Shown here: positions 1 to 61,039 of the stretch, one piece after another
Layout of the letters: every line of letters begins with the position of its first letter
How positions within the stretch are numbered: the first letter of the stretch is position 1
Assembly: GCA_951230915.1 (NCBI GenBank)
Contig: OX579635.1
Coordinates: 39,618,001 to 39,682,000, forward strand
Length of the DNA stretch: 64,000 bases
Origin: Antitrichia curtipendula
Taxonomy: Eukaryota; Streptophyta; Bryopsida; Hypnales; Leucodontaceae
Reading direction: 5' to 3'
The notes under the pieces: model-generated
The model's input: the letters and a program-made list of their open reading frames with translations, nothing else
What the model was told of the DNA's origin: nothing
Database searches by the model: none
Program-made: the position numbers and the translations under genes

Positions 1-441
1 ATGATGGTCATCTTACCACCTAATGCAGTCTTCAGATTTCCTAACACAACCACAAGAATTTTTAATGTGGCCATCACACAAAGGAATAAAAAAACAACTC
101 TTTATGATGAGTTTACACTCACAATGTGTAAGTGTCCTATGACAGTCATTACTAATTCTATCACAATCACCTAATGCACTAATGTGGGCCACTAACCAAC
201 CTAATTAAATTGTAGAAGCAAAAATCTGAAATGGACTGTAATGGGGGGTTATGTAGATGTCTGCATTAGACAGTTGGCCTGTCATAGGCTGGTTTACCTT
301 ACTCTTCATCACACCAATACTCGGGCCAACATATAAAATCTGTCCTGACTGGCTAGCTTATTATTTCGAGAAAAGAATTGTTTGTAGTCTCCACCATGCA
401 GCAATTGCAAGGACAACGATCTTCAGTTTCCATGAAGTCCT
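1..441. other. Intergenic, with relic of an AAGGTA-type miniature transposon end
   Basis: The stretch around 275-297 (ATAGGCTGGTTTACCTTA) matches the ends of the inverted-repeat element at 13,748-14,965, so a decayed copy of that element seems to end here. Nothing else is recognised; the plus-strand frame at 257-598 lacks any recognisable domain. Confidence 0.35.
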
Positions 442-924
442 TCAGCTAGCACCAACTTCCACTTCAAGAGCGGCAGAACGTCCCCCGCCATTGCCGCAGA
501 CTGGGCAGGGGAAGCTGCGGCACACGTGGACGCCGTCTCCGAACAAGATCACGCCAGTCTGCTGGCGGCCATGTAGAAGCTGCTGCACTGCACCATGAGC
601 ATAGACTTCCAGCATTTGTGGTGTCACCACTGATGCGCTGGACAGGACTCCACGTTGAGACCTTCCAGGGTTGCAAACGGGGCAAGGAAACCTCGTGCAG
701 CGATGTCCATCTCCTATGGACGCCATCTTCGGAGATTGGCTCAAGTGCTTTGCGTGCTCAGACTCGGTGTGGAAGTCCGTGATTGTGAAGCCGCAAAAGG
801 CAGCTTCCATTTTGCATTGGGAGCACGTCGAACACTGGCCATGGGCTGATCCCAAGCAGCAGGCGACGTCGGCCTTGTCAGCCAGCTTCTGGTGAGACAG
901 GCTCAATTTAGCGGAGTAATCCAT
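442..924 (-). CDS. Small cysteine-rich protein with duplicated FPCPVC motif, hypothetical
   Basis: I do not recognise the family. The first ATG of the open frame is at 924, giving 160 aa; the frame stays open upstream to about 1,050 without an ATG. A good acceptor-like CGTCAG lies just before CTCATGG, so this could also be the last exon of a spliced gene. Eight cysteines fall in an N-terminal cluster (CC, CSTCSQC, FC), and two copies of a C-x2-F-P-C-P-V-C motif sit in the middle and near the C-terminus, each after a GDG tripeptide. This internal duplication argues for real coding. The same spacing (C-x2-W-x-C-x2-C) ends the small protein at 3659-3886. GC content is higher than in the flanking repeats. 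Metal binding is plausible from the Cys spacing but unproven. If the open region before the ATG were translated from a non-AUG start it would add a hydrophobic leader. Confidence 0.45.
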   Translation of the reverse strand: MDYSAKLSLSHQKLADKADVACCLGSAHGQCSTCSQCKMEAAFCGFTITDFHTESEHAKHLSQSPKMASIGDGHRCTRFPCPVCNPGRSQRGVLSSASVVTPQMLEVYAHGAVQQLLHGRQQTGVILFGDGVHVCRSFPCPVCGNGGGRSAALEVEVGAS

Positions 925-3658
925 GAGCTGACGAGAAGATGTGTAATTGTGTAGAAAAAAATAGAGAAGAAGCAGAGTTGCAAGAGGGCCCAAGCGATCG
1001 ATGAACTGAGAAGTCTTGACTTTATGAATTGGAATGAGTTGCTATCTCCGAATGTTGTAAGTATTTGTTCCTGGTTGCTGGATTTATAGTAACTGAGCTT
1101 GCGAGTCGACCTCCAACAGTCGGATTTTGGAGAAAGTGATCAAGAGCTGCACGATACTTGCTTTGGAGAATTCTGGAGAGCTTGCCTTCTCCAATATTTT
1201 ATCAAGTTTGGAGCATAAAGTAGTGTGCTGTTTAACATCATTGATTGTCCGTCATTTATGCATACAGACTTTCCATCAATAGGGATTCCCGTACCACCAG
1301 TTTGAAACCCGAACCAGTTCACAAAGTCTGGCTTACGTCAGTGAAGGTCATTCGAAATTGAGTCTACGGGATGATTTCGGAGTTGTAGATATTTTGACTC
1401 CAACATTACTTTTGGTCAAGACAGTAGTTGATTTGGACTCTAGATTTGGAGAGCTTCGTGCAATGGGCACTGGAGCACTGACAAAGTAAACTTGCCTTCA
1501 AGTAAGTGATGTCCAGGTTGCTGTCCACAATTAACTCACCTAAAATTGAAGCCTACCACGTAAAGTTAAGGCTAGCTAAACGGACCGTGTAGGGCATTTG
1601 CATTGCGCACCTAGCCTGATCACCAGCATGTATTCCTGAAGAATTAATCACTTAGGCAGATCGAAGCTCCATTTTCCAAAAGCATTTACCCAATTAACCA
1701 GCTCTCCTCCTGGAACAGACAGTTAAAGCCAAATGAATCCAGTCCCCGAAGTCCCTGAATTCCTGGGTACCAACCTCCAGCCGTCTTAGAATTGGAGCCC
1801 ATTTCCACGACCATGACTTTAGAGTTTGTCTGAGGAGGAGATCTACATATACCACATCAAAGTCGTTAAATCGTTACGTTGTTGGGAATGGAATTGATCG
1901 AAGTTTTTTTTTTCACATACGAATTATGTGATTCGTCGAGGAATGTCGACATGAAGGCACACAGTCTCAGACACGCTAGTGCTGCATGCTGTGTTCAATA
2001 CCGACACATTTAGTTTTGAAGTCGGTAATTAACCGTCTCCTCCACCTCCTAAATATCAGTGTCAATCTCTTCAGTTGATTTCGGCCTCTCTTCAGTTGAC
2101 ACTAACTGAGAATCTCAGACACATGTGGATACCGACATGTTGTATAATATATACCCGGCCCATCGATCTCATCCACCTACTTAGTTAATTAATCTCCCTC
2201 GTCAATCTGATCTAATTAATGCCGCACATATATTTTTCACTTGACTTTTCGCTTCTCAGTTATTCTCAACTTGAACTTGCGTGGAGGAAATACCGACTGA
2301 AATTCAAATGAATGGAAATTTCCTGGACCTCGATCTGGGTCACTCACCTCCATGACTTTTAGGTTACCGACAACTCCCGGAGTAGTCTGGTAAACACTAG
2401 TCCAGTCGTTTTAGGAATGACGTTAGGCTTGCGTGGCTTGAGTGGCTTAAGTGGCTGTGGGTACCTAGGGTAGTATAACTGTTTTTTTTGACATGATCCA
2501 CTATCATTTACATCTCATGTACTGGATGTGTTTGACACACCGGTTTTCCCCAAACAAATTAACGTACGGGTTTTATTTTTACCGTTATAAGTTTTTCTGA
2601 AACGGTCGAAAACTTTAAGCCTTAATTCAACAAGGGCTTTCTGAACTTGTGATATTTGCAAAATCGTTTTGTTAAATACTCCTACAGGCGGTATTATTTA
2701 CTTAGTAGCATATTCACTCCTCGCCGCCACATACATTCCAGTCTGTCTGCGAGTATATGGTCGTAGTTCTGTCGATGAATCCAATTTGAAGTCTGCTAGC
2801 TTCATGATTGAGTGGTGCGTGACACCTGTCGGTTCAAGTCGGGTCACTCTCCCTTTATTTTAAACCTTTCGTTTAAGTGCCCGGGAAGAACCGGCGGCTA
2901 GTTCAAAGTTAGCCGGTGGAATTGGGAAAAAAACTGGTTGCAAATTGAAAACATCGGCTAAAAACCCGGTGAAAATGTCTATAAATTTTTTATTTTGAAT
3001 GGAAAAAAGAGAAAATAATCAGACTCGGTACTTGAAAAACCGGTTCAGTATGGAAATTGGAGGAAATTAGCCGGTAAAACTAAAAAAACTTCCCGAACAC
3101 TGTGCCCAAGCCAGACAGTGCTCCGACACGTAACATCTCATCTGGTCGAACACATTCCTTGCAAGCTAGTTTTTCTAGCCGAGTGTACTAGCTAATGTTA
3201 AGAACAAGAACAGCAAGGTATGCACGAACCTGAGTGTACTTGACTTCGGGAGCTAGCTATACTAGCCCTGGAGAATGTGATCACACACATCAGCTCCAGG
3301 AATTTTCAACATTCTCTACGTCAATTTCGTTAAATTGGCGGCCTCAAGTCTGTCTAGAACTCTCACCCGAGAGTAAGGAATGGAAGGTGGGAGGCCGTGC
3401 ATGATTCAAGGTCCGTCGGACTTCAAATTACAATAAATTTTTGGACAAGTGAAGTCGTACGTAGCTATCTCCTCACTGTCTGCAATCCAACCCCATGGCA
3501 ACGAGTACAAATGGACTTGAGACGAGCGATAAATTCACAACTCCAGCTAGCTTATGAAAAGCAATTGCCTTCCGCTCCCTTTGCAAGCAAGCAATTTGAT
3601 ACTACTCGCACATAGTCTACATACTCATCCGAGGCTTGAGTCATATATTTCAGTGAAG
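925..3658. other. Gene-free region between the two small Cys-rich genes
   Basis: Moderately GC-rich DNA without long reading frames. A TATA-like TATAATATATAC at about 2,141-2,152 follows several GTTGAC/TCAGTTGA repeats, but no open frame follows within a kilobase, so it is not called a promoter. No repeat family seen elsewhere in the window was recognised. Confidence 0.3.
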
Positions 3659-3886
3659 ATGGTGAGCACGAGTGTCATGGGTCCGGCAACGACGGCATTC
3701 GCTCCCTCTGGCCAGCTCCCCCGTTTCACTGGAAACGATGACCCCGAACGCGAAACAGGGGTCAATCTTTTGGCTGACAATTCTGCATTAGAAGCTGCTC
3801 ACAACAGAAGTGGCCCAGGGTTCGCCTGCTTTGGAGAGCCAACTTGTAACTGCAAACACTGGACCTGCACTATTTGCAACGGTTGA
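3659..3886 (+). CDS. Small protein with C-terminal CxC..CxxC motif, hypothetical
   Basis: A 75-aa frame starts at ATG 3659 (context AAGATGG) and ends in TGA. Residues 1-50 are hydrophilic with no cysteine. The last 22 residues hold all five cysteines in the order C-x5-C-x-C-x3-C-x2-C, including NCKHWTCTICNG. The final C-x2-W-x-C-x2-C repeats the pattern seen twice in the minus-strand gene at 442-924, which suggests a shared small family. An upstream in-frame-unrelated ORF overlaps the start. An AATAAA at about 4,383 could serve as polyadenylation signal. The pattern recalls Cys-rich metal-binding peptides such as metallothioneins, but it does not match the usual plant metallothionein classes. 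Function unknown. Confidence 0.5.
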   Translation: MVSTSVMGPATTAFAPSGQLPRFTGNDDPERETGVNLLADNSALEAAHNRSGPGFACFGEPTCNCKHWTCTICNG

Positions 3887-5784
3887 TAATCATGATCTCC
3901 GTCTAAATTACGGCCGGGGTGGAGCAGACTTAGCATGTTGCTCTCACTCTGGTGTTAATCTTATTTTGGTATCGTAGATTCGATCGAGTCTGATCGAGTT
4001 TAAAGGTCTTTACATGTGGGCACATGTAGACTACCTCCATTGCTAGTTACTTAGTCAGGTGTTGAGTTCAGTGTGACATTCAAGTTGCTAGAGAGTGCCG
4101 TCTGAAGAGAATAAGTACCAACCATGTCTGTTAGTGAGATTCTTTAGTTGTCTTGGAATCGGAATTGACAGGTTGATTGGTTGAATTGTTAAATAATGGA
4201 CCGACTGAGTAGAAATTTCTTTTGCAGCTGATCATCTGATAATTAGCTCATGTTCCTTAAATTTCTTTCTCCAGTTCGGGCTTCTGAAGTTTGTAGTGAT
4301 AGTGATTTTGGGGTGCATAATTAGGACATAGTGTCGCATTGCGCCCAAGATGTCCAATGTCATTTTATAGGAATGCTTCATAAATAAAAGATTTACATAA
4401 TTTTGCACTACCTGGTGTAATTATGCCCTTGTCAAGAAAGTCAACGTAATGACAATCTAGGGGTGCTTGCATGGAGGGATTATTATCTTGAATTTTGTAG
4501 GGTCTTGTTTATTTTATGTTAATGTAAGGTATCTTCAAAACCAGATTCCATGCTGTGTGCAGTGTCAAGTTCTATAGCATGTTAGATTTTTGTAGACTTG
4601 AAAGTACCATAATCATGTATTCCACACCCTATGTTACTTACAAGCACAATATATTCTTTGAGCAATTTATGGGTGTCCTATGTTACAATTTATAAGTTAC
4701 AAATTTAAATTTTTTTCCTCCATTGTTTAATAAATATCCTATTTTTGAACTCACTAATAGTTCTAAGATTAATTCTAAGTGCCTTCCAAAGGTTTTTGTA
4801 GACAAAAACTTGCTTTGTTGTAGTCAAACATTATGTTTTACAATATAATTTTTTTTAAATAATTTTTTAATTTTTAATGTTTATAATTTTTATAATTAAA
4901 AAAAAATGTAATGTTCTTATAAAGGTATCAAATGGAATGCTATTTGTATATGGTTTTGAGATTTTATAAAAATTAATACAATAATATTAATAAAGAAGAG
5001 AACTTGCGTGAATATAAATATTATTATTATTAATCCCTAAATACATTGACTCATCTCTAAGAGTTGAAATTTTTTCTGAAAATGTCCTATACTCAACAAC
5101 TTCAAAAAATAATTTAGTGTTAATCCCTTAAGTTCTTTGACTATACATTAGAGAGAAAATGAAGCACCAAAAGGGCTGCCAAAAAGTGACCAAACCAGTC
5201 TATTATTCAAAAATAGGCAACCTGACAAATCTAGGCACAATACATTGTCAACTTGAATGTGTGAATTTTGCAAAAGGTGCCAGGATTTAAAAATCAGGAT
5301 ATAGCAAAGATATGTTTATAAATCACCGGCATCATATTACACAATGATTAATTGACAAATTAAACAAATTAAACCAAATGAAGTGGCTTTTGAAGCTACC
5401 AATAGTTACCAAAAAAATTTGAAACATTGATGATTTTGTAATAACTTCACAAGCCACTTAGTTGGTAGCATTTAAAGTAGAGAAGGAGAGATATTTATAT
5501 AAGTGGGATAGTATTAGATAAAACAATCCATGTGGGATATGTAAATTAGGATAAATACACGCACAACCACTCATAGTTAAGTGAAAAGTAAGAATTATAT
5601 TCATGGGCGAATTCAAACCTTGATTATTTAACTTTTTGTATTTTTATTTTGAACCACTAATAGTCATCCGACATCGTGACTTCATGCAAGTGACCATAGG
5701 GAAAAAACAAATCTGTAAGTTAAGTTAAATATTATCGTGGGGTCTTTTCACTTGCTCTGGAGCGGCCCTCTAGAGGCCTCAAAA
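3887..5784. other. AT-rich intergenic DNA
   Basis: 3' flank of the small Cys-rich gene, then AT-rich sequence with A/T homopolymers and no frame over 60 codons that looks coding. No structural RNA recognised. Confidence 0.4.
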
Positions 5785-45676: not shown

Positions 45677-46402
45677 CCTATGTTTTGACAAGCTCCTATG
45701 TTTTGAGCAGTCAAGCTCTTATCTTCAAATTATCCCATAGCCTTTGAGGATTCACAATGAACAATGCATTTCATTATAAAAACAACCTCTCCATCTTCCA
45801 ATTTCACAAAATCTCATTGAATTCATTCTTTCATTTAGCCAAAATAAACTTCTTTAAGTAGATGGTCATTTGAAAGCTAGAGAAGCAACTCAATGGATTG
45901 TTAATGAATTTTGTGTATTGTCTTTCATTTTTAATTAACTTATATTGACGTAGTTATATTTGCATACCACAATTTCATTGTTTGATGTAGCAGTGGCTCA
46001 CCACATTGGATTCGTTTCCAAAAGCAACAAAGGTAGGCTTATGGAAACATCTTGACAACTCACAGTCTTTTAATGGCCTCAGATCCCATCTAATGTCCAA
46101 TTTATTGAACCTTCTTTTGCATAAAATCTGTATGTCACACTTTAGAAGCCCCTCAAAGTTTTTTTATTTTTTAAATATTACATCACATTATTAGGTTTTA
46201 CAGACAAAAATTCCTAAAAGGAATGTTAACATATAAATGGGAAAGTACTTGCCAATACATTATTTTGCCCTTAAAAGCCCAAAATGCCCCAAAATGCGTC
46301 AATCTATCACTTTTAGATGAACTAGATGTTCTAAAAGAAACACAGGTCTAGTTTGCAATAAAACAAGGGATCAATAGCAAAATATCCTTCCTAGAGTACA
46401 AC
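45677..46402. other. Left half of the host repeat interrupted by the MULE
   Basis: From about 46,190 to 46,402 the sequence follows 61,945-62,182 (ATTAGGTTTTA[CT]AGACAAAAA, GATCAATAGCAA), the second copy of the same host repeat. No gene. Confidence 0.6.
46394..46402 (+). other. 9-bp target-site duplication, left
   Basis: GAGTACAAC, repeated directly at 61,031-61,039. A 9-bp duplication is characteristic of Mutator-like elements. Confidence 0.85.
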
Positions 46403-46453
46403 CAACGACACTAGCAAGCGAGCTTGGAGCGGTGAGCTTGTGAGCTGTGAGCG
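46403..46453 (+). repeat. MULE terminal inverted repeat, left
   Basis: Repeats of GAGCTTG and GTGAGC give this end internal structure; it pairs with 60,972-61,030. Confidence 0.85.
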
Positions 46454-46618
46454 TGGATCTCGTGAGCTTGGAGCCCCCAAACTTAAAAAAATTGAAAATT
46501 CGGACTCCCAAATTTTTTTTTCCGATTTTGTTGGGAAAAAAGAGGAAAAATGTCAATTTTTTGACCTAACACCGTGTACCCTATAACCGTGGATTTTGTG
46601 AAATTTTATTTTTGATTG

Positions 46619-46923
46619 GGAGGCAATTCCATGACTCACCATATTTATTTTCCTAGAAGTTGTGAAAGCCAAGCCGCACTGATGAACAGAAATTCATCGA
46701 CAAAATTTAATGGGGGCCCAATTCCATCACTCATTGATTTTTTTTAAATATTTTTTGTAAAAGCAAGGCACCATCGGTGAGTAGAAATTCATCTACAAAT
46801 TTCAATGGGGGGCAACTCCGTCACTCAACATATTTTTTTTCCTATAGGTTGTGAAAGCCAATCACTACCAGTGAACAAAAATTCATTCACAAATGGTAAT
46901 GGGGAGGCAACTCCATCACTCAC
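46619..46923 (+). repeat. Subterminal tandem repeat, about 3.2 units of 95 bp
   Basis: Each unit begins GGGAGGCAAYTCCATSACTCA or a close variant and contains TTGTGAAAGCCAA and GAACARAAATTCATC words. Tandem subterminal repeats are common in large MULEs and may bind transposase. Confidence 0.7.
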
Positions 46924-47475
46924 AATTTTTTGTGCCCAAATACAAAGTTGCCTGAATACAAAATACACATGACGTAATTCGTCTTGAACAAAATGCTAGA
47001 GGACCGTTGGGAATATAATATGCCACACAATTACGGCCAAGGTCTATTCCCCAAACAGTCCTCCTGCAATGATTGTTCATTGAACGTAACTACTTATATA
47101 GTGACTCATTCCCAAATGCCAATCGTTATGGGACAACTGAAGACTTAAAAGTGACCTCTGAACATGTGTTGTGGGACACTTGAATAGGAACCTGGACATT
47201 GGTCTTGTCACTCTTCCCCATTTTCAGCTCTCATCAGTATTGTACGCTCATGTATTAGCAAAGGCCGCCTTGTATTTGGGTGTGTAGTATTACAGTAAAA
47301 TATAAGGTTGGAACTCATGCATATGCATTTTAATTATCCACACGTATTCTTACATATGAGACATGCTCCTCTATTTTCTGATACCAATAACTTCTTCTAT
47401 GCCATGTACTTCATATCATTTCAATGTATGAGGGCCATTACAATATTTTGCACTACATAAAAAAAGTAGCCATAC
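46924..47475. other. 3' flank of the transposase gene
   Basis: No open frame of note; probably 3' untranslated and subterminal element sequence. Confidence 0.4.
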
Positions 47476-50400
47476 TTACTCTGGCAATATGATAATCCTT
47501 GCCCGCACTAGGAGTACCTTCAACTCATTGTAGCTATAACTAGGTGCATGAATGAATTTGTCTTCATGAAGGTCCATTTTGCAGAAGTACCTATACAAGT
47601 AGTACAAGTGCTTACAATTCACGTATTCTTGGCAACCTCCAACAGCGGACACAACCATATTCACAAAGTCCGGACATGTGTATGTAGGAAACATACCAAC
47701 AGTAATTCGGTATATATGGCTGTTGGAGTCCACCCCACTCTCGAGTACCACTATTGCTCCAAGGCCAAGAAAAGGGAGAAGGGTCACTCCTAAAATTTGG
47801 CCTCTAACATTTCGAGCACTCTCCCACTTGTTCCGTTGCTCTGTAGTAGGGGCATTTGTAGCTCTCCTAATGGTCCGGTTGTTCCTCACTGTTGGATATG
47901 CATCCAGATTTGGTGGAGATGCTTGGTCAAACAAAACAGGCTCAAAAATATTAGACATGGAGAAGAGCTGACGTGGCGACAATGTAGGCCGTTCTTGGAG
48001 GCGGAAGCCTGCATGCTGCAGCAACAATGTCTCTTCTCGATCCAAGTTGGTTCCAGCCAACACTTGCCAAACTTTCGGCACCTCAGGCCAATCTATGACC
48101 CACTTACGCTTTGTACCTTGCACACATCGTTCAATATCATCCCAACAAAACCAAAAATCGGCCACCACCTCACGCTTACTCCCGTACTCTTCTTTTCTAC
48201 CATGGTAGGTGGGAGCTGGAGTTCCCTTTCTTCCTTTTGCAATTTTCGCGGTACACTTGATCTTTGACATTCGTTGCTGAGCTTGGCATCTTGCATTTGA
48301 TTTGTGACTTATTCTTGCAATGTGCCACTTTGATGTATCGCAGTCACTTTCAAATGTGATTGACACATACTGGTGTGGAGTGACCTCGCTGTGTGATTGG
48401 TTGACTTCCAATGGCTCCGTGAAAACCTTGGTTGACCTTGTTTGAACTCGAGGTTGAGAAAAGTTGACCTTGTCGGGGCGACGTGAATCTTCGGCATCAC
48501 CAATAGGTACGTCCAACTTTCTCTTCGTGCTTCCAAATATTTCTTCTCCTTCCAAATGCGGTACTCGAGTTCCTACACCATGTGCTTCTGGCAATGTGTT
48601 CAATGCCTCCGCAATTTTTTGGGGGCATCCGCTGCGTCTGGCAGCTCTCAACTTCAATTCTCCCTTGGATGGTCCTGAACCAGAAGTGTGACCTCTCAAA
48701 TATGCACGGTAGTTTGTCCTTTGCATCCAAGCACAAATACTATCATCACAAGTGGCGTCAAACAAATTGTTTGCACGTTTACCGGACATTTGAAGCGACT
48801 TGTTATGAACCGTTTCGGACAGATTACAAAAAGGTAAATCTGTCATCTCTTCCAAACTCAAGCCCTACAAATCCAACCGAAGCAATTAGAAACTATTCTA
48901 AGCATACATGAAACATTTGTATGAGAAAAACGAATTCTAAAAATTCACACTGTACAACTAGGATACCTTGTAAGGAATATTGAAAATGTGAATTCTTAAT
49001 TTAGGACCTTTCAAATTCCTTGCAACTAATGAATACCCAAAATAGGAGTAGTACCAGACAACACATGAACATCCATCGGATCCGACGGATGTTTAAGTAT
49101 TGCCTGGTACTACTCCCATTTTTGATATTCATCAATAATTCAAAGAAATTTACTAGTCAGAATTTCACGTATGTTGTCATGTACAGAAACAAAAAGAACG
49201 AAAAGCCATGGACAATTTTTTCTGGTACAAAGTATAATTCTATTTTGCAACACTTTGTAATAAATAAAAAATGAAGCTAGAAACAAAAATTCTTAGTTGA
49301 GCTTACCATGGTCATGAAGCCTCCCCACTGTAAATATCGAAAATGCCAGCCAGTGGTCTAGGTGATGAAGTGCTTCTTCGGTTGCAGCTCCAGACCAAAG
49401 CCACCATGAACGAATTGCAAGGTACCGACTCTCTGCTTCATCCACGGTCTTTGATTCTTTATATTGCTTGCATAACATAATGTGTTGTTGTTGAAATGCA
49501 TGCTTGATGTGCTTCTGTGTGTGTTTTATAAGAGAAGTACTCCAGTGTAGCAAACACGTCCTTTCACGGTTCTCCATTACCTCATTGAGTCTGCCACTAC
49601 CGTACACAATACGAACTGCGTTCCAATTGGCCATGGCGCTATCTGCCATAAATCCCTTGAAGTTCGGATCAACCAATCCATGTCGTGCCATGACCAAATT
49701 CAAACTCTTCCAAAATTGTACTTGGACTTCGGTATCTTCAGATTGCATGTCATACATGGCAATGGTCATCACTTTTTTGTACTGTGAATCATACACGTGG
49801 CAAGCCATTGTGGTCCAGTCCTTCACGCGCTTTACGTGGTCGAACATCATCCACGTGTTTTGCAGATCACCACCTGGTTGCATACGCCTTATCAAGTCCA
49901 CTCCACTTCCAGGTCCTTCAGTGAGCATTTTGAAAATGTACACCTTCTCTTTGCCTTGGCCTGGGAAGACGCTATCATGTATAAATTCGAACTTTGATTC
50001 TTTCTTCATGGTCATAATGTTGTCAATGACTCCTCCTCGGTTGTTTGAGCGAAAAGAAGAGATGACGTTTCGTATACTTAGACTGCTCAGAAACTGGAAG
50101 CGATCCATAACCTCTTCCATTTCTTCTCCCTTCAACATTTCCTTCTCTCCTTCTCCGTGATGAAATAGGTGATTTTGTAGGAAATCTTTGCTAGCAGATA
50201 GCGCAATGGCAGAGTTGGTGGCTGTGGGGGTTCTAGACACCTGCTCTGCAATGAGATCACTAATTTCTTTTGCGGAGTCCCTATACAAGCCCATAGCTAC
50301 CGGATGAATATGATTACCGAGGTGAATAGCAGCCCTACTCATCTTTGCATCATCGCTGTAGCAGTAGTAAATTCTAGCGCCGCATGAGCTCACGCACGTA

Positions 50401-51567
50401 GGTATTGTTTTGCAAACCTTACAAACTAGCCTACAATCTTTAGGAGGACCCTCTCCTATTGCAAAAGGAAAAACTGTAGAACCGCTCCACTCTGTCTCAT
50501 TCTTTCTGGAAGCCCTCTTCATATACTCACACTCAGTATTTTCACAAATAAGATGACCAGCGCAGTATGACTTACGGAACTTTAAGTTGTCGGAGTTGTG
50601 GATGTTTGTTGTCACCAACTTGCACCAAGGATGTCCGTCGTATCGCTTGTCCATTCCTTCCAAGTTCTTTGCACAAGATGAATAAGATTGTGGTCCACAC
50701 GGAGGTAATTCAAAGATGGTGTCCCCATTGTATGTAGGAGGCAAAAACTTCACTTCATGGTGTTCCACAGTGTCAAAGTCCATTGTAGACAACTCACTCC
50801 TAGAACGATGAAGCTTAGAAAGTCTCCTCAAGCACTTCATTATACTAGGTTGGTGGAAAGGCCTTGGGTGCAATGGAGGACGGGACAACACAGAGCGCAC
50901 ATGACTACTAGATGGGGTATTGGATTCAGAGTTCCCATTTCCCTTCTCCTCTAAAGCATTGTTAATTGTAAGGGGGTTTAGTTGAAGGGTTAAGGGTGGA
51001 GAGTCTTCTTCTGAATCGCTAGCCAACTCTATGATAGAATCCAAGTTCTCTATCTTCAGTATAACAAGAATTGGACTTCTAGGAAATACTGAGAGACGTT
51101 CACGACACGGACCTTCTGTAGTTGCCTCTCTCATGAATGGGATATCCACTGTTGAATTCACTGATTGCCGACTTCCTATCTCAAGAGAGGAGGGTACTAT
51201 TGATAGTGAGATACCATAAACTCTAAAATTCCCAGACGCTAGGTACCAACAAAAGCCCTCATCACACATGGACTTTAATATAGGAACTGATTGTTGCAAT
51301 TCACCTAACTCAGACCTTCTTTCTTCCTCTACATAGATAGTCGATTCAACAAATTTGAATCTCACATGAAGCAAATGATTCAGTACTTTAGCTCGCCCTC
51401 CTTCATCAAGTGGAAAACACTAAGGGTGCCTCCTGACCATCTACACGTATGCAGGCCATGTTTCTATCAATAGACAAGTAGATACTGAAATCCAAAAGAG
51501 TCACACTGTATATGAAGGATACACAGGTTACTTGGTTGTCTCCATGTTTTATAGTGATCCATGCCAT
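47476..51567 (-). CDS. MULE transposase with WRKY-GCM1-like and SWIM zinc fingers
   Basis: Two large exons: 51,567-49,307 and about 48,850-47,476. The first ATG (51,567) opens MAWITIKHGDNQ; a one-base frame change near 51,405-51,412 is needed to continue into the 690-aa frame. Exon 1 holds an acidic SIIELASDSEED stretch, then a Cys/His region (CAGHLICENTEC, CKVC, CVSSC) closing in AAIHLGNHIHP, as in WRKY-GCM1 fingers. The MULE core follows: HVYDSQY, GFMADSAMANWNAV, ERTCLLHW and a tail ending WLAF...GRLHDHG at the GTAAGC donor. Exon 2 carries a basic, variable middle and a SWIM-like finger, CPDF...YVNCKHLYYLY. Its first Cys is Tyr (YTC for CxC), possibly a lesion. The acceptor that keeps frame is GGAAG|AGATG (exon from about 48,850); the better-looking TTTGTAG acceptor 15 bases upstream would run into a stop. 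It would excise and integrate the element in the nucleus. Confidence 0.82.
49018..49132. repeat. Long imperfect palindrome 1 (transposase intron)
   Basis: Arms of about 53 bp match at roughly 85% around the centre TCGGATCCGA. Paired words include ATGAATA, GGAGTAGTACCAG and AACATCC. It sits in the intron between the two transposase exons. Confidence 0.85.
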
Positions 51568-52167
51568 TCCCCATTATGGACAAAGGCGCCAAAGGTAAAT
51601 TTGATTATAATTTTTACTTTCATCATTAATGACGGTAGATGCCATCCTTTTGATGTTCTTCAAGTTCATAAGCGCCAGCATTTACTGAATATTTTGGGAA
51701 GGGACAATTGCTACAATACGGTCTCATCATCATTGTAGTGCATTTAGGTATGAAGTGAAGGAATCACTGCAGATAGATTTGACTTAAGATATGTCCTAAA
51801 TTTCTTTTTGAGATATTTATCCTCTTCTGATTATATGACACACAATCCACGCTTGTACCATGGCATATGCAGAATTTCACATTTACCAAAAAAGTACTGT
51901 CAGAATTGATGTTGCTCTTCTTAACTGTCATAGATGTTGACTACACCATCAAGCACCGTGTCGCGGCACGCTTTTGCAACAATAACAAGCATAAATGGCA
52001 GACCTATGCTATAGCACAACTTGTGTGAAGTTATGGAGGCCAACGTCCATTTTCAAAGAGTACTTATAGTCTTTTTGAGGAGGAGGGATTCATTTGTACA
52101 TCATGTTTTTGGTGTGTTAGTGCTTGCTCTCTGAGGTAGTTGTTCTCATTATCCTTTCTCTTAGCAC
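51568..52167. promoter_or_regulatory. Divergent intergenic region of the MULE
   Basis: Lies between the start of the minus-strand transposase and the first plus-strand cargo exon, so it should contain both promoters. A minus-strand frame opening ATGATGATGAGACCG (from about 51,734) reads about 34 codons with a CSNCPF motif and may be an upstream exon of the transposase. No clear TATA box chosen. Confidence 0.45.
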
Positions 52168-55100
52168 ATGCTCATAGAAGACCGGGGAGATTTGTTTAGC
52201 TTGCCATTGCAGGGTAGAAAGAGGAAGAGGCGATCTTCATTCTATTTTTCTTCTTCTAGAGCGTTGAGTAGAGCTAGAATGAATCGATCCAAGAGGGCTA
52301 TGTCAAAGTCCGGAAATTCTGGAGCTGGCGAGCTTCGGAAGACTCTTCACTTCGAGGTGGGAGAAAGTGGGGACGCAATGGGTGTTGTAGGCCAGGAGGT
52401 TGGCGGAGAAGGGGAAGAGTCTCAGCAAAATTTCACGTATGACGAAGTTTCAGCTCATCACGTCAACACTAATGTACGATAATATCTATTCTTTCTATTC
52501 TCAAGAGCTTGTTGTTTTTATCCAGTGCTCATTACGCAAGCGCCATATGTTTGAATGCGATATTCCTTGAGGCCAGACATTAGTTTAATCATGTATTGCT
52601 AATATACATACAAGTACAAAAAGGACACCAAATTGCATATGTTTTAGGATACAAATATATAGGGCCCTTTATAGTTTGCCAACTTGGAACTACAGTAGTT
52701 GTGAGTACTCAAATGAAATTCTAAGAAGAAAGTGAAGCTATGTTCAAGTATTGATGTTGTGATCTGAGTAGAGTCTAATGACAAGGGATCAATAATGTTT
52801 TCAATGTCTCTACAGTGAACATTGTTGTGCTTGAGGACAAGTGCATGCATCACATTACAAGCTGTGCTTTAACCATGACTCCCCAAATCAAAAAATGAAC
52901 CGTATTTAGAATAAATTAATGATTACCCTTTCTTTTTGGTGAAATGGTAGAGATTGATTTATAGATTGAGACTTCGTACTCAGCACTATAAAATAATGAG
53001 TGGATGGTCTCTGGTAGATGCAAAATGGTAAACAAATTAGTTGCTTTGCAAGATTTTTGAAAAGATGGATATCTTTGACTTCAATGGCTTTTTTTCTTTT
53101 TCGAAACTAGCATTCAATCAGTCTAGACTTCAATATTACTCTTTGTACATATTGTACCTTCACTTTGGTGGCTTCAAACTTGGAAATTAGTATTCCAAAT
53201 TCCTGGACCACAACAGAATACATCTCACTATCCACAAAGAACAACATATAAGTAGTCCTAGATTTAAGTCGACTTCATTGTTGCTGAGAAGCTATGAGAG
53301 CGTGCGCGCCATGTCACGCATCTAGCAAGTTCACCGAGACATTCGGGCAGCTAAAGTTGATACATTTAGGCAGTAAGGGAACGACCATTCATGAACCACA
53401 AATCACGCAAGTAAGTGAGGCCACTAAACCGCAACTGAACTCTTAAGCACAGGTGGTGTTAAGTACAGAAAGTAATTCCGATTCAAGGATAGAAAGAAAA
53501 ATCTCTTTTGAACATGATTGCGTTCCTTAGATAATATTTGCATGGATGAGGAATTGAGGATTCGTGGGAAAAGTATCCATGCAATCGGGTCTGCATTCAA
53601 TTTGCCGCCCAAAGATTCCGCTGTCACGGAGGCAAGTCAGCCGAGCAAAAAGCTCCATCGATCACGGCCTGTGATGAGAACTGCGTGTGGTTAAGGAAGC
53701 ATTGAACTCCAATACTAAATTTTCCTTGATCAGTCCCATATCCATCCGTGCTTGCATATCGGCTGAATCACTGAGGGACTGCGCAGGAACAGGGAGCGAT
53801 GAGGAGGAGTATGCGGAGCCGATCCAGGCAGGGCAACTTTAGGAACGAAGTTGGGAGCCACTCGGAGCTAGCTGAATCAACGAAGGTATGTGCTTCACTT
53901 TGATCTCGTTTCGCGTGCATGATCGCGAGGGTTCTGTCACTTGTACTTGGACCTGCCTTGGACTTGTGAGAAGCTTGGGCCTTGTGGCGCAACGCTCGGG
54001 TTGACGTGTATCGGGTTTGTGCGTGGTCTGCCGCATCACGCGTGGCGCGTCCGCAACGAGGCTCCCGGCCGGTGAGTGTCGCGCGTCAGGTGAGAAGCTT
54101 GGGTCTTGTTGTGCGACTCTCGGGTTGACGTGTCTCGGGTTTGTGCATGGTCCTCAAATTCATACCGAACCTGTCATTCAAATTGTGAAGTTGGGATGTC
54201 AGCGGTCCCCTTTTCTGGGGTAGTAGCAGGTAGCCAAGAGACAGGCGTCGGATCCGACGCTACTATTTCAAGTGGCTGCTACTACCCCACCAACTAGAAC
54301 AACAAACAAATTTGGTGACGATCTGTTCCGTTTCCGACCGCAACTGGCGTCTCAATATTTCTTTGACAAAGAAGATTCCTCCGAGGTTCGAGCTCAAATG
54401 AGTATAGGTTTTATTTGCTTCATAAGTTGAATCGCCTCTGTCTTCCATTCGATCGAAAAATCATGTCCCTAGTTAGTTCTGCTCGCTTCTACAACCTGTC
54501 GATGCTAGTCCCAAGCATATTTCATTTTACAGATTGAAATAATGTTTTTGGTGATGATCGAGATTCTGGTGTAGCTTTATTCACTTCTCCGGTACTTGAC
54601 GAGGATCAAGGAGTCTCAAATGGTCAGTACTTGCAGTCAGATTTTTGGAAACAGTTAACGTGTCTTTCGATTTCTGGGGTACCAGCAAAAAGCCACCGAA
54701 TGGGCGTCGGATCCGACGCAGTCTTAGCTGGTGGCATGAGGTACCCATGGAACTGGCAACTTCAGCGGTTCTTTAAAAAAAAATTTAGCACTTGATCGAT
54801 TATAGGACAGACAGAGGACGAATTTACATGTCGAGCTCCGCGAGGGCACGGTGAAGCCATGATTTCCAAGATAGTGAGACCAAATCGGATTTTCCCTCGA
54901 TATATTTGCAAAGTTTCTGGTTTTTTTGTTTACATATCTGATTCCAAATTCTATACAATGCAGGCAAATGATGCATCTCTGGGAACTGCCATGGAAGCTC
55001 AGAGAGAAGGTGAACAGGTAACTCACGAAATCAGCAAAGTCTTAGGGGATGATATGTTGTGATATTATCAAATTTAGATAAAATATTGTTACATAATTTG

Positions 55101-56089
55101 ACGGTGGAATTACTCACTTTTTTCATAAGTAGATTGTTTTGTATATTCTTCATTCACGTTCTAGATAATTCGAAATTGGTCAGTCACAAGGACCCGTTTC
55201 TGGGGTAGCTACAGATACCCAGGAAAGGTCCTTCGGATCCGACGGGTATTTCCTGGGTACCTCGAGGTACCCCGTAAATTGATACCCTGTAAGAAAGAAT
55301 CCTTGAGGTACCCCTGAGGGAGAGTTTCCAGGGGGAACACTTGATATCCGATACCCTAATTGATGTTCCTTCAAATCCTATTATTTTTGTCATTGAATGG
55401 GCGACAATCCATAAATATTATTTGAGGGGTACCTAACTATACTTTCAATGGGTCCGTTTTATCCGACGGTCCTTCTTGGCACTTCTTGAGCTACCCCACA
55501 AATTAGATTCTTTACCATAGCCCTATTGAAATTTTGAATTTGATTTTGCAATGTCATAGGCGTTCACATTGAGACATATGATGCCTAGACCCAAATGATC
55601 AATTAATTTAATTCTTACTTTGTTCTTTTGTAGGTGGAGGGACGCAAAGGCAAGCGTGCAAAAGCTACTTTGGGGACCCCAAAATCACCTGAGATAAAGG
55701 ATTTCCCAGCCCTTCAGATAGGTGCGCCTTCAAATACCAAGAAGTGGCCTCAACCAGGCGTGGACCTCTCAAGCGACTCAAGTGATGAGGAGGACACATT
55801 GGTGAGTTTTGCAGACATTATGGATGCCGCTGAGCAAGCGGCAGATGCTTTTGAGGGCGACCGTGTTAGTCAGACACGTGAGCCTGTCCCTTGGTGGTTG
55901 TCACCAGAGAGCTCTAATATAGAATTTTCCTCTTCTATTGAGCTCTCTAACTCTCCGTGTAGTCCTCAGTTTGAGGGTGGATGTGAGTCTATGTGTGAGT
56001 GCCCGCTTAATGGTAGGGTTTATTCTGACGAGGTCATCATCCTTAGCTCAGATTCAGATGCGGACAATGAAGTGGACGTGGTAGGATAG
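52168..56089 (+). CDS. MULE cargo, acidic N-terminal protein with SUMO-interaction-like motif (three exons)
   Basis: Exons 52168-52473, 54964-55017 and 55634-56089 all join in phase 0 through GT-AG introns, giving about 271 aa from ATG 52168 (an internal ATG in MNRSKRAMSK is another candidate start). The first exon is basic (GRKRKRRSS, a possible nuclear localisation signal), the second is an 18-codon mini-exon, the third is acidic with VDLSSDSSDEED and, near the end, DEVIILSSDSDADNE, a classic SUMO-interaction pattern. It ends in TAG at 56,087. A donor-like GTAGGA six codon positions before that stop would let it run in frame into the next exon at 56,324, so it may be the N-terminus of the ParB-methyltransferase rather than a separate gene. 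No catalytic domain seen. Confidence 0.5.
54203..54295. repeat. Imperfect palindrome 2
   Basis: Outer arms TGGGGTAGTAGCAG / CTGCTACTACCCCA are exact; the centre GCGTCGGATCCGACGC is a perfect 16-bp palindrome; between them the arms are unpaired. Confidence 0.85.
54673..54752. repeat. Imperfect palindrome 3
   Basis: Centre GCGTCGGATCCGACGC; outer GGGGTACC pairs with GGTACCCA, and inner CCAGC/GCCACC words pair with GCTGGTGGC with a shift. Structure as in palindrome 2 with different arm sequence. Confidence 0.75.
55199..55274. repeat. Imperfect palindrome 4
   Basis: Outer TGGGGTA / TACCCC, middle TACCCAGGAAA / TTTCCTGGGTA, centre TTCGGATCCGACGGG. In the intron before the third acidic exon. Confidence 0.8.
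55427..55499. repeat. Imperfect palindrome 5, half core
   Basis: Outer GAGGGGTA / CTACCCCA; the core keeps only its right half (TTTTATCCGACGG for TCGGATCCGACGG). GGTCCG and GGTCC words flank the centre. Confidence 0.65.
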
Positions 56090-56323
56090 GGTATGTCTTG
56101 GTAGTGATCTTCTTGAGCAGCATATTATTAGAATGCCCCATGAAGGCAATCATTTTTTCAATCATGTATGCAGATATCTACCTATCTATCATTAAAGATT
56201 CGTATTTTTTTGGCATAAGCAAAGCATTGTGAATTTCAACTCAAGTGAATGCTTTACATCATTCGTCTCACATGTTTATGATCATGAGTTCTAAATTTAT
56301 CATACATGGATTTGTATATGCAG

Positions 56324-56999
56324 ATGGACATATCGCCGGTCAAAGAAACACAAGAAGAAACTCTTCGAGAGACTCCTGGAACGGATGATACTATGCAGCC
56401 AGAGATTGAAGAGGGAGACGAAGGAGAAGAAGGCGAGTTCATGGAGGAGGATAGTGTTGAAGACGAGGAAGAAAAGGGCTTGCTGGAAGACGATCTGCGG
56501 CGTATTCACAAAGGAGATTCGGTGGAAACGCTCCGTGGCTTGCGGATGAAGCCTGAAGAACTCTTTCGCCTACACATTTCATTGTGTAGGCTTGTAGCCA
56601 TGCCCATGGTCCGGCCTACACTCTCTTGCGACATCAAAAAGTTAGAGCAAGAATTTGCTGGAGGATATCGTGATGGAGCAGCGGTGTTCTACGTTTCAAC
56701 GTCAAATGAGCAAGGAAAAAGCTCAGAATTTACGGAGGCTGAGATGAGCGAGTGGGATGCACTCTGGAAAGAAAAAAATGAAGTCTTCACTAAGTATGTG
56801 GAGTCCAGACCCGAGCTCAAGTTCATGAAGAACTTGAAGTTCTACATATGCGATGGAAACCACCGTCGGATTGCTTGGATGAACTTGATTGGCAGGTGCT
56901 ACGCATTGGATCCAACATGGCATTGTGCCGTCGATTGTATAGTGTTGGACACCAAAGTCAGATTGAAGTTGTCATGCAAGTGATGCATGACATCAACAA
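56324..56999 (+). CDS. MULE cargo, exon with ParB/sulfiredoxin-like domain
   Basis: The exon begins right after TATATGCAG with ATG, so it is either an internal exon or the start after a leader intron. The first 75 residues are strongly acidic. From about residue 85 the sequence fits a ParB-N/sulfiredoxin fold: a KPEELFRLH helix region, and after about 100 residues the signature YICDGNHRRIAWM (56,843-56,878), corresponding to the DGxHR box that binds nucleotide in ParB-type domains. Around 56,950 the frame must shift by one base to reach the GTGAGT donor at 57,000 in a frame that joins the next exon in phase; read straight it stops at 56,981. So this copy has a probable one-base deletion or a sequence error there. 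Confidence 0.65.
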
Positions 57000-57104
57000 G
57001 TGAGTTATCTTTGTATTTTTTGTTTTATTTTTAATTTTAATTTATTATATATCTTTAGAAGATTTAGGCAAAAAATATTTATTTGAATACTGGTTTCATT
57101 TCAG

Positions 57105-58258
57105 ATCGGTTGAAGACTCCCATGTCAAGACTAACTTGGTACACACTCTGTATCAAGTTCAGAAGTATGGACTTCTGCCAGTTCAGCGATTTGCTGATCT
57201 GCTTAGGCTGTCAGAGAGGAAGAGATGTCTTGAAAACACTGTTTCCAAGAAATGGTACTCCATACCAGTGCAGGTCTTCACATCATTTCTTTTTCGGGTA
57301 AGATATTTTGTTTCACATGAGAGTTCACATTCCTTGTCTTCTCATGCTTTTGAATCTTATGAGGTGATTACCTAAAATTGGGGTGCTTGTGTAGCAAGAC
57401 ATTTCTCAAGCCGCAGATGCTGCTGTGCGGAAGTATACTGAGGTCACGCCTGAAAGTGAAAGGAAGGCAGAAGATTTGGCACTTGCCATGAAGGCTGGAG
57501 CAAAAGAGAGAACTAAACATTTGAGTGTGAAGATGGGCAAACTGTTGGCATTGGCGAATCCTGCAAATGGGCCTGGATTTCTAGAACAAGTGAGTAAAGT
57601 TTCTCAAAATTGAGTGATTTACATTTTCCACATGTTATGTTTAGTTGGAAATTGATCTTCTATTGGTGTAGGTGGAGAGGCATTAGAGCACGAATGAGGT
57701 TCCCGAAATGACCTTGGAGAAGTTGCAGATGGTAGCCACATGCAACATGACAGCCGCACACAAGATCAAGATTCTGAAGTGGTGGAACTCCTCTACTCCA
57801 TCTCGTGAAGCGAGGAAGTTCCCACAGAAGCCTGTTTCCGAAAACTACCTTTCTCCTTTTCTTGCCAAATGCGTTTGGTATGCAAGCGTAAGTGAGCAAT
57901 ATTTTTTATGTTCATGTAATTGAATTTGTTGATGGTTCGTATTGAATGTTTGATTCATGAATTTGGAAAAAACTTTGTCATATCCGAAATTATGGAATTT
58001 CATAGTCTGGCATTTTTTTTAGATCAAAGATGCAGCTGTGGAGTACTTCGATTCAGTGGTGAGGCAAGACAACATCAACATCAACTACAATGTACCGCAG
58101 CAGCCACAGTATTTGCCAGAGTACATTGAAGGATGGAGGCAGAAAATATGGGATCATGGCTTCATGACGTACTTCAAGGGACAAAACTATTTCAAGAAGG
58201 GAGAGTCTTTTGTGGCTCACGAAGGTTCAGGCTCCATAGTTCGTAGAGTTCTCTTCCG
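57105..58258 (+). CDS. MULE cargo, linker exons between ParB and methyltransferase domains
   Basis: Four exons follow in phase: 57105-57297, 57395-57589, 57687-57887 (or from 57,672) and 58023-58258. They encode an alpha-helical, charged segment with no named domain: the first continues the ParB region (a helical HTLYQVQKYGLLPVQRFADLLRLS-type part), the second is Ala/Lys-rich. For the third exon, the TTGGTGTAG acceptor leads to an in-frame TAG after four codons, while the next AG (CATTAG) removes that stop and keeps phase. The last exon ends at CTCTTCCG|GTAAGT in phase 2, which does not fit the phase required by the next recognised exon, so a lesion or an unrecognised mini-exon lies here. Confidence 0.55.
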
Positions 58259-58530
58259 GTAAGTACATTGAACTTATTTCTATAAAAATGTAGTTCACTA
58301 TCAAGTACTAATGTAATTTGTCTTTCATCACTTCGAATAAGAACTTATAACTGTTGCTATGGTTCTACACACTTGTGTTTGTGAAATAATTTGTGAGAGA
58401 CAAAGTGAGGGTATAAACCTTGTTCAACCTTACTTGGATTGTCCTTCTAATATTTTAGTTAGTCTTTTATTGTCCTCATAATATTTTTCTTATGGAGAAC
58501 TGTAATTGTGTTGCGGTTATTTCAAATTAG

Positions 58531-59198
58531 AGCTTGAAGCCAAAGGGGCCATTTCTCGCTTGGACCTTCCTCCATTCATATCGTCATTTCTTGACCGCAC
58601 CTCAACGGCTTGTATGTTCAGTCTGCATCAGCTACGCACCTACACCACAGCTCATCTCAGCAGTGGAGGATGGTATTTGGACTGTACAATGGCCTTCACT
58701 CCTCCTTCAGAAGTAGAATTGAGGAGATCTTTGGATGGCAAAGGTGCTGTCGATTTGGACATTGACGAGTTTGCCGGCCTGGATGATAAAGCAAGAACAA
58801 AGGCCATTAGGAAGAGAGATGCTCATGACAAAAAGAAAGAAGCACGAGCGCAAGTGAAACTGGAAACCTCGGAAAAGAGGGAGGCTGAGCGAGCAGCAAA
58901 GAAGGCGGAGAAAGAGAAGGATGATAAAGCCAAGGGCAAGGGTAAGAAGAAGGACGAAGCACCATCTCTCATAGTGGATTATGATTTGGAAATTGTCAGC
59001 GGAGGGAAGCGGAAGGCCACCCTATCGCAGCTCACGGAAGATGTCATTACTCACGTGACCCAAGCGATGGTCTTCACAGAGGATGATGTGGTGAAGACCG
59101 AGGATTTAATCCTCAACGTCTCGATTGAAGACCTTGTGGTTGACATGGAGGAGAAGAAGCCGACTTCGTACAAAGACGTCATTGTCTTTTTGAAAAAG
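58531..59198 (+). CDS. MULE cargo, Lys/Glu-rich coiled-coil exon
   Basis: One 668-nt exon from the AAATTAG acceptor to AAAAAG|GTGACC. The first third is uncharged; the middle (58,780-58,960) is a Lys/Ala/Glu-rich helix with repeated EKRE, AAKKAEKEK and KGKGKKK, probably a coiled coil and nuclear targeting signal. The last third is acidic with VKTEDLILNVSIEDLVVDMEE. It joins the following methyltransferase exon in phase 0. Function of this part is unknown; it may be a spacer or dimerisation arm before the catalytic-like domain. Confidence 0.6.
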
Positions 59199-59302
59199 GT
59201 GACCATCTTTCTCTTCATAGTAATAAATGATTTATTTTTTTGGAGTGACATTATCATTGTTTGTATTCATTCTCTCAATTTTAATGCATGACATGTTTGC
59301 AG

Positions 59303-60677
59303 TCTATGTCAGCTGGAAAAGCTCGCAAGTTCGAAGGGGTGACAAACGCTAAGCCAGGGGTGGACGTCATTTTTATTGATTGCCCAGAGAACTTGCCCGT
59401 GCCAGGGGTCTCTTCTCCAGCAGACGAAGTGCCGGAATGGAATGCAGACGAAGATGCTGAGGCCCTCCAATCAGCATGCAGCTTTGCCGCCGAGCATCTA
59501 CAAGACGACGGATGCATCATAGTGTTTCACTCGTACAACATCAAAGCAAAGGAGGACATTGCTGGAGTGTGTGAGACATACCAGATGGTGAAGAAGAAGG
59601 AGTGGATGGGAATGAACCGTATACACTTGACCTTGGCTGTAGGCAAAACAAAGACGGTAAATTTCATTCAGATTTTTTGGGGCTTTCATGAGCAATTCAC
59701 TTTGTGCTCTACTAACATTCAATGCATTCTAATATCCATTTTGCTTGGCTCCTGCAGACACAAAAGTTTGGAATCACCCTCCTTGTCAAGGACCTTGGCG
59801 CCAAAGGGAATTCCAAATTTTCTTTCAAGCGCACTAACACCATGATCAAGGCTAGTGTTGACATAGCATGTGATGACATGTTGATGAACTATACCCATCC
59901 GGATGACATGGCAATGAATGGAGAAAAGCCATGGCGAGGCGGGCGCGAAAAAGATCCAAGGTTTTTTACAATCCTCCTTGAAGCGACAAGCATCAAAGGA
60001 GATCTGATATTGGATTGCACTGCATCTACAGGTGAATGCTCAATTAAATTATGTTACATTTTAATTGTAATCTTCAAATCTAATAAAGGAACTAAGGTAT
60101 TTCAATTTTTTGGCCTCTAGGTGCATGCATTACAGCTTGTCGTGGCACCGGTCGCCACATTGTGGCCTTGGAGGGGAATAGGGACATTTATAACGTGATC
60201 TTGAAGCCGATGAGGAAGTCAACAGGGATTGTGGTGGCAGCATCAATGCCGGTGTCGATGGAGGTGGTTTTAGAAGATCCGGATGATATGCCCGTGGTGC
60301 CTCGTAAATTTGCTCGCAAGGGGAAATTTAGTAAGTAAGTTGGCACTTTTTAAAATCTTCCATAACATGGTGACTCACATTTCAAAACCCTAACATTATT
60401 TTGTTCATTTTGTAGGGATCGACGATTGATGGCAGCAGGTGCTATTACCCCAAAACCAAGTCTTCTCATTAGTCCGGAGAAGCCTTTTGACCTTCCGGTC
60501 TATGCCGAGCAAATGGCAAGTGCCTTCGCGGAGTTTGGTTGCTCCAAAGCAAAACGCCGTAAAGACACATATGCTCTAAACGTTTTGCAGTACATAGATG
60601 GGTCTGCATCCGAGGGTAGAGAGTCCTCAGAATCATCTACGAGTTCCGAATCTGCACCTGAGTTCATAGCAAATTAG
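59303..60677 (+). CDS. MULE cargo, DNA amino-methyltransferase-like domain and C-terminus
   Basis: Exons 59303-59656, 59758-60031, 60121-60334 and 60416-60677 join cleanly through GT-AG introns, ending in TAG at 60,675. The order matches beta-class N6-adenine/N4-cytosine DNA methyltransferases: first the motif-IV region VIFIDCPENLP, then a helix and LQDDGCIIVF strand. After an insert comes KDPRFFTILLEATSIKGDLILDCTASTG with GRHIVALEGNRD, which corresponds to the family's late motif I and acidic ribose-binding strand (P..l...i..ts..gd.vlD.f.GsG, then gR..igiE). The catalytic [DNS]PP[YFW] is DCPE here and FxGxG is TASTG, so activity may be altered or lost. The tail is Ser/Glu-rich. With the ParB-like exon upstream, the order is ParB then methyltransferase, as in phage and bacterial fusion proteins. 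DNA modification in the nucleus is inferred. Confidence 0.7.
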
Positions 60678-60971
60678 ATTCATGAGGTTGATAAATCTCT
60701 TGGGTCAAACTATTGTCTATTTCATTTCTATTATGATTGGATTTGTGTGTTTTATGGCTACATCTCGGATATTTTTCATTTCCTATTTTTTTTAATTGCT
60801 TCACTTTATTTACAGCCCTCATATTTCACTATTGTTGCCTAGAAAGAAATGTCAATAAATACAAATAGGCACGTAACATCCAAACAAAAACCTTATATTT
60901 TTCACATTGCACTACGTATGTCATCCACGGTCATAGGTCCTTTACACTAAATTTTCAAATTAATTTTTTCC
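60678..60971. other. 3' flank of the cargo gene
   Basis: AT-rich, with AATAAA-like words (CAATAAATAC at about 60,853). Presumably 3' untranslated region and subterminal DNA. Confidence 0.4.
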
Positions 60972-61030
60972 CGCTCACAGCTCACAAGCTCACCGGCTCA
61001 CCGCTCCAAGCTCGCCTGCTAGCAACCCTG
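60972..61030 (-). repeat. MULE terminal inverted repeat, right
   Basis: Reverse complement begins CAGGGTTGCTAGCAGGCGAG and follows the left terminus with an extra CGGTGAGC-type 8-bp unit. Confidence 0.85.
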
Positions 61031-61039
61031 GAGTACAAC
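61031..61039 (+). other. 9-bp target-site duplication, right
   Basis: GAGTACAAC, identical to 46,394-46,402. Confidence 0.85.

Follow-up and report, generated by a model that had tools for sequence, protein, structure and literature searches.

What a large DNA transposon might do with a second gene whose product joins a ParB-like part to a DNA-methyltransferase-like part is the question raised by a locus of Antitrichia curtipendula (Bryopsida), which lies in a stretch of 64,000 nucleotides (GenBank assembly GCA_951230915.1, contig OX579635.1, positions 39,618,001 to 39,682,000 of the forward strand). We refer to this whole stretch as the window and count all positions from its first letter. 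Positions 46,403-61,030 of the window comprise one member of a large family of DNA transposons with two genes, in which the ParB-methyltransferase-like gene is a second core gene and not chance cargo. Both of the genes are under purifying selection, and the family also carries large palindromes that are candidate target sites for the second protein. An initial annotation, made from the letters of this DNA alone, had described a Mutator-like transposon with such a cargo gene; the palindromes, a break in the frame of the cargo gene of the window copy and the loss of register at the end of its transposase were not part of that description.

A two-gene transposon family

The searches covered an assembly of 400 Mb in 303 contigs and scored the best candidates only, so that the copy numbers given here are lower bounds. 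The window copy begins on its left with CAACGACACTAGCAAGCGAGCTTGG and on its right, read as the reverse complement, with CAGGGTTGCTAGCAGGCGAGCTTGG; its inverted arms are 92% identical over 36 nt and fully identical (100%) over 24 nt, and GAGTACAAC stands on both sides, which bears out the terminal inverted repeats and 9-bp duplication of the initial annotation. Of 203 candidate matches to the 68-bp left end in the genome 40 were scored, with an inward-facing scored transposase within 12 kb of 24 and an inward scored ParB exon within 45 kb of 34. In all four further copies that were examined the left end is identical at 56-59 of 60 positions; the right end was located in two of them, both flanked by duplications of 10 bp that agree at 10/10 and 9/10 positions. 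Beside the left end there is a subterminal repeat of ~95 bp in three copies (46611-46931; 64-77% alike to the first copy), and a pair of 63-bp direct repeats, 89% alike, lies between the genes (53966-54152).

For the transposase-like open reading frame (ORF), 63 of 1814 candidates were scored, of which 28 contain no internal stop; the ORF of the window copy diverges from the family register at its final residues. The cargo gene runs on the plus strand, divergent to the transposase, in ten hand-assigned exons between 56,324 and 60,677 that encode ~1,088 residues, and the divergent, intron-bearing gene of the initial annotation is borne out; its frame is broken after residue 212 in the window, and other copies read through. 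For the ParB exon and the first methyltransferase exon, 150 copies each were scored (of 1267 and 1113 candidates, respectively). A divergent ParB exon lies within 15 kb of 55 of the 63 scored transposases (chance 0.003 per copy), four of the remaining eight have one 19-28 kb off, and a methyltransferase exon follows on the same strand, 2.6-7.0 kb downstream, for 123 of the 150 ParB exons. This co-occurrence of the three is what identifies the cargo as a second core gene; the initial annotation had named copies lacking the cargo exons as the finding that would speak against it, and the 55 of 63 came out in its favor. Chance capture of the cargo is rejected, because the gene travels with the transposase and is under purifying selection.

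Median ratios of nonsynonymous to synonymous substitution (dN/dS) between subfamilies were 0.12-0.14 for the transposase (no saturated pairs left out), 0.11-0.16 for the ParB exon (many pairs were saturated, and 152/209 and 22/55 were left out for this) and 0.17 for the methyltransferase exons (3/36 pairs saturated); for the transposase and ParB comparisons the diverged group included L058, although it is a close fragment. The alignments of the copies took in 13 of 30 transposase loci (A1) and 12 of 30 ParB loci (A2), with L059 excluded for a stop and others left out. Within the 97% family the values were 0.53 for the transposase and 0.39 for the ParB exon, as expected of young, partly decaying copies. 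One subfamily occurs on C1, C3, C4, C6, C7, C9 and C10 (e.g., C1:44311829 and C9:25082484); six of its ParB exons have equal scores, as have five of its methyltransferase exons, which suggests a recent burst. The acidic ORF that precedes the ParB exon (Table 1) is 88-100% identical in 19 close loci, the window included, and 30-43% identical in nine diverged copies.

Table 1. Features of the transposon copy, in window coordinates
Feature	Position	Strand	Remark
Left 9-bp target-site duplication, GAGTACAAC	46394..46402		direct reading
Whole transposon copy, 14,628 bp	46403..61030		inverted ends and duplication; 40 scored places have this left end
Left terminal inverted repeat and subterminal end	46403..46470	+	87-100% identity at 40 scored places
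Probable later transposase exon, 462 aa	47479..48864	-	48% identity to the ORF after the transposase ORF in L080
Palindrome of 104 bp in transposase intron	49029..49132		core 49076-49085
Transposase-like gene, first long ORF, 708 aa	49296..51419	-	last residues off family register here
Palindrome between genes	54212..54293		core 54248-54257
Palindrome between genes	54671..54750		core 54707-54716; weakest arms of the four
Palindrome between genes	55197..55278		core 55233-55242
Conserved acidic ORF upstream of ParB exon	55634..56086	+	closed by a stop codon; either a small gene of its own or an upstream exon
ParB/sulfiredoxin-like exon, 212 aa, with DGNHRR	56324..56959	+	frame breaks at end in window copy
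End of ParB-like exon	56962..56999	+	shifted frame; other copies continue TKGRI..VMQVMHDINK
Middle cargo exons	57105-57297, 57395-57589, 57687-57887, 58023-58258	+	hand-spliced
Lys/Glu-rich linker exon	58533..59198	+	junction with 58258 out of frame in present model
Methyltransferase-like exon 1	59303..59656	+	motif IV position is DCPEN, not DPPYN
Methyltransferase-like exon 2	59758..60031	+	KPW... to motif I (LDCTASTG)
Methyltransferase-like exon 3	60121..60334	+	motif I end and acid (ALE)
Last cargo exon and stop	60416..60677	+
Right terminal inverted repeat	60972..61030	-	present in 2/4 copies checked
Right 9-bp target-site duplication, GAGTACAAC	61031..61039		direct reading

The transposase itself was taken by the initial annotation for that of a Mutator-like element (MULE), and of this claim the transposase has stood better than the label. 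Target-site duplications of Mutator elements and MULEs measure 8-11 bp, and those of 9 bp in the window and 10 bp in two other copies, bordering inverted ends, fall in this range. Among the transposase copies two candidate aspartates are nearly invariant and a CxxH is invariant, in a D...D...CxxH spacing that we take to fit Mutator-like transposases. The Pfam profiles MULE (PF10551) and Transposase_mut (PF00872) matched none of 13 copies, and the element is therefore not filed as a MULE; in one outside relative PF00872, the profile of the Mutator family, reached E=0.038, below the cut-off. Profile comparison of the transposase with local MULEs, for which few diverse rows were available, gave no link, a search of PDB sequences gave no match, and a structure model with a pLDDT (predicted local distance difference test) of 42 was too low to use for an RNase H-like DDE fold. 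Termini, duplication length and motif spacing thus lend the MULE label weak support.

A predicted ParB-like fold and an altered methyltransferase-like domain

The ParB-type box of the initial annotation, DGNHRR, lies at 56,852-56,869, and the domain around it is recognized mainly as a predicted fold. At the level of sequence the link to ParB is weak: a PHROG ParB profile matched 7 of 12 ParB-exon copies (best E=0.02), DUF1015 matched two of the 12 (best 0.0043), and Pfam ParB-N (PF02195) matched none of them. The exon has 684 matching ORFs in public data at E up to 1, and from an alignment (A4) of 75 rows, in which the exon of the window was joined by 74 ORFs out of 120 listed among the 684, a structure model was obtained with high confidence for residues 121-210. 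The structures that it resembles most are those of ParB, Noc, KorB and sulfiredoxin, and phage ParB-type proteins are among its matches as well; the E-values and Z scores are moderate, and therefore we speak of a predicted ParB/sulfiredoxin-like fold for the first cargo domain.

The second domain is more readily placed when the copies are aligned with one another; searches with the single spliced cargo sequence returned nothing, and a Pfam scan of single exons returned nothing relevant. The region 59,303-60,334 matches phrog_498 at E=1.3e-5 (aligned over 20-248), phage methyltransferase profiles are matched by nine of nine copies (best 2.8e-9), and PF01555 by eight of the nine (best 1.9e-5; the window copy, at 0.0015, is under the Pfam cut-off). 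A profile of the nine copies found CcrM (6pbd) at E=3.6e-5, aligned over 17-234 from motif IV through motif I, that is, in the permuted order IV then I of the beta-class N6/N4 DNA methyltransferases. The beta-class resemblance and the prokaryotic type of the module, both proposed by the initial annotation, are supported.

The proposal that the module is a working modification enzyme has fared less well. At the position of the DPPYNL of CcrM all nine copies have DCPENL or DCQENL, and eight covering ORFs from other sources have DCPEN, DCQEN, DCPKN or DIPEN, so that in every one of the 17 copies that could be read D[C/I][P/Q][E/K]N takes the place of the catalytic (D/N/S)PP(Y/F/W). Motif I reads (T/S)A(S/A)(T/I)GA in the nine copies, with its FxGxG degenerate in each, while the D, N and L of DPPYNL are kept in all nine, as is the ALE that follows motif I, whose acid we expect to hold the ribose of S-adenosylmethionine (SAM). 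The loss of DPPY is common to all of the copies read and is accompanied by selection on the remaining domain. General knowledge of N6/N4 methyltransferases suggests that a site without DPPY would not methylate, and because DPPY is gone in every readable copy, ordinary base methylation by the cargo protein appears doubtful. The domain is therefore termed methyltransferase-like and is not filed as an active methyltransferase.

The methyltransferase part has twelve matching ORFs in public data (E 5e-61 to 1e-32). Positions 1-4101 of a contig filed as an uncultured cyanobacterium isolate (L080) encode a related transposase, 45% identical in the best segment, and a later ORF with a CxC...CxH ending that we take to be SWIM-like; the contig is probably a misbinned eukaryotic one. 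Pattern scans of viral contigs found no relatives.

Palindromes and their possible role

The sequence TCGGATCCGA occurs four times in the window, always inside the element (chance for the window 0.29, with up to one mismatch), and every one of these sites is the center of an inverted repeat of ~80-104 bp; in the weakest, at 54,707, 25 of 55 arm positions are paired. Genome-wide, the 12-mer GTCGGATCCGAC occurs 379 times as against three for a reversed control, and a 14-mer version of the palindrome core 90 times as against one. With these controls, and with the window sites all in the element, an origin of the palindromes by chance is rejected. When the first 50 of the 379 and the first 50 of the 90 places were compared with the 150 + 150 scored cargo exons, a scored ParB or methyltransferase exon was present within 15 kb of 47 of the 50 places listed for GTCGGATCCGAC, and a ParB exon within 15 kb of 41 of them; for the 14-mer, 47 of its 50 listed places had a ParB exon within that distance, where ~0.7 would be expected by chance for each pattern. 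The listed places with no scored cargo exon so near are C5:31530773, C2:45213271 and C4:12793745 for the 14-mer and C1:20277194, C1:40479980 and C1:43778790 for the 12-mer; these six may be element fragments or host sites.

The palindromes occupy conserved noncoding places. That of the intron is found 210-260 bp past the transposase ORF match in 23 of 30 copies (weak in one, absent from six). The arms vary among subfamilies yet remain self-complementary: when five core-keeping copies (one variant allowed) were compared with one another, each of the 10 pairs showed 4-13 symmetric changes, a comparison made with no null model. The half-sites of 12 sites, picked by a pattern close to that of the core, share TCCGAC at the center and TACCCC 31-36 bp outward; the constancy of the core, and not that of the outer block, is partly due to this choice. 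In the subfamily with the equal-scoring exons, palindromes lie at about -8.8, -1.1 and +4.8 kb relative to the ParB exon. At 55430-55500 of the window there is a likely decayed fifth palindrome with an altered core; L051 and L055 keep the core at what appears to be the matching place.

A second protein that is conserved with the transposase and has a domain of predicted DNA-binding type, together with a dyad concentrated in the noncoding parts of the element, matches the pattern of VANC21 and VANDAL21, and ParB proteins load on short palindromes; for these reasons we favor, tentatively and at somewhat less than even confidence, a reading in which the cargo protein binds the TCGGATCCGA-centered palindromes of its own element and would thereby shield the element from host silencing. 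Countering host silencing had been suggested by the initial annotation; it is still our best guess, and the palindromes now supply candidate targets for it. The ParB-like part may load or spread on DNA, by analogy with bacterial ParB at parS, the methyltransferase-like part would now serve for binding of DNA or SAM and not for base methylation, and the outcome would be anti-silencing of the kind known from the VANC proteins of Arabidopsis VANDAL elements. It is possible, and we hold it with less confidence, that the family has built a parS-ParB-type system in a eukaryotic nucleus, a clamp with a retired methyltransferase that coats or marks the element from its palindromes and blocks silencing, the methyltransferase fold having passed from writer to reader or DNA grip. 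An enzyme that is still active, its altered motif allowing N6-adenine or N4-cytosine methylation by which the protein marks its own element, is improbable given what is generally known of the roles of the motif IV and motif I residues, since the first proline and the aromatic residue of motif IV are changed in 17 of 17 copies and the FxGxG of motif I is degenerate in nine of nine. It draws on the homology to methyltransferases, CcrM included, on the residues kept in all nine copies, on a GATC within the palindrome core and on the self-modification suggested for algal relatives (PMC12477816).

The main rival to anti-silencing, and the less likely of the two, is that the palindrome-bound protein is a transposition helper that shapes or bridges the element for excision or insertion, as might be compared with mudrB of maize MuDR. 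The two-gene layout and joint selection would suit a helper, as would sites that in the young subfamily stand across the element, and integration is reported to depend, apparently, on mudrB (PMC6446971); we nonetheless consider this unlikely, for the window sites are in an intron and between the genes, away from the ends, and the terminal repeats of the window lack the core. The palindromes could instead be hairpin-forming DNA or RNA (small-RNA precursors or the remains of nested miniature elements) unconnected to the ParB-like protein. Single-strand folding of all four in the window is indeed strong (z -2.8 to -9.6), and symmetric arm changes suit a hairpin as well as a dyad; what makes this account a poor prospect is that the center of the dyad, which would be the loop, is the most constant part (in part through the picking of sites), that for each pattern the cargo gene is near 47 of the 50 places listed, and that the core is in none of eight unrelated MULE loci. 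MULEs do tend to acquire host gene fragments (PMC6446971), and a passenger that does nothing for its element, of the kind seen in Pack-MULEs, would be in keeping with this habit; for a gene that accompanies 55 of 63 scored transposases in several subfamilies and is kept by purifying selection, the role of passenger is very improbable.

Comparison with known systems

Both domains are encoded by one hand-spliced gene on a DNA transposon, which places the gene with the ParB-methyltransferase accessory proteins. Sola elements make 4-bp duplications, and the 9-10-bp duplications of the present family go with another element type. The closest precedent is a Sola element, Sola1-1_Ec32 of Ectocarpus, in which, according to PMC12477816, ParB-like and N6/N4-methyltransferase domains are joined in one protein (1104 aa there, ~1,088 hand-spliced here) whose gene runs divergently from that of the transposase in a large DNA transposon; proteins of this kind in green and red algae are mentioned as well, and the authors predict 4mC or 6mA modification and suggest self-modification. 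The idea that such a cargo had never been described is therefore rejected; the initial annotation had known of no plant element with it. By description, the present family stands apart in its loss of DPPY and in the palindromes described for it. Searches of an open-access library, in which most subscription journals are missing, brought up no report of a ParB-methyltransferase cargo in a Mutator-like element; as far as the searches reach, the family itself, its loss of the catalytic motif and its candidate targets are new. In the passages of PMC12477816 that were consulted the target of the algal proteins is not given, and the present family offers a candidate dyad target, together with many open-frame copies and the loss of a catalytic motif under selection, by which the role of ParB-methyltransferase proteins for eukaryotic transposons becomes directly testable.

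Among prokaryotic proteins, the bacterial and phage architecture of ParB-N followed by N6_N4_Mtase (P0013; PF02195 + PF01555) likewise has a ParB-type part before a permuted methyltransferase, and its motif I half matches the cargo by profile at E=7.5e-6. In a database search with the methyltransferase part P0013 was not significant (E=0.61), the ParB exon had no sequence match to its ParB half, and P0013, unlike the cargo, has a canonical DPPY. DIRS1-like retrotransposons also bring a methyltransferase domain, of unknown function, into a eukaryotic mobile element, but they are retrotransposons with a tyrosine recombinase, and no ParB-like part is mentioned in the passages of PMC3266345 that were consulted. 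To mudrB, the second gene of the Mutator element MuDR of maize, the cargo gene is likened by layout.

The VANC proteins of the Arabidopsis VANDAL elements are the comparison on which the favored reading leans. According to PMC5735166, VANC is likewise a second gene, there of a MULE-type element, with a short motif concentrated in the noncoding parts of the element, and in VANDAL21 the binding of VANC21 to its motif accompanies the loss of methylation. The motif of the present family differs in being a large dyad and not an array in the same orientation, the binding of motif by protein is here putative, and Pfam scans of the cargo pieces found no DUF1985, the VANC domain. If the reading is true, the family described here would have met the problem of anti-silencing in a second way, unrelated to that of the VANC proteins.
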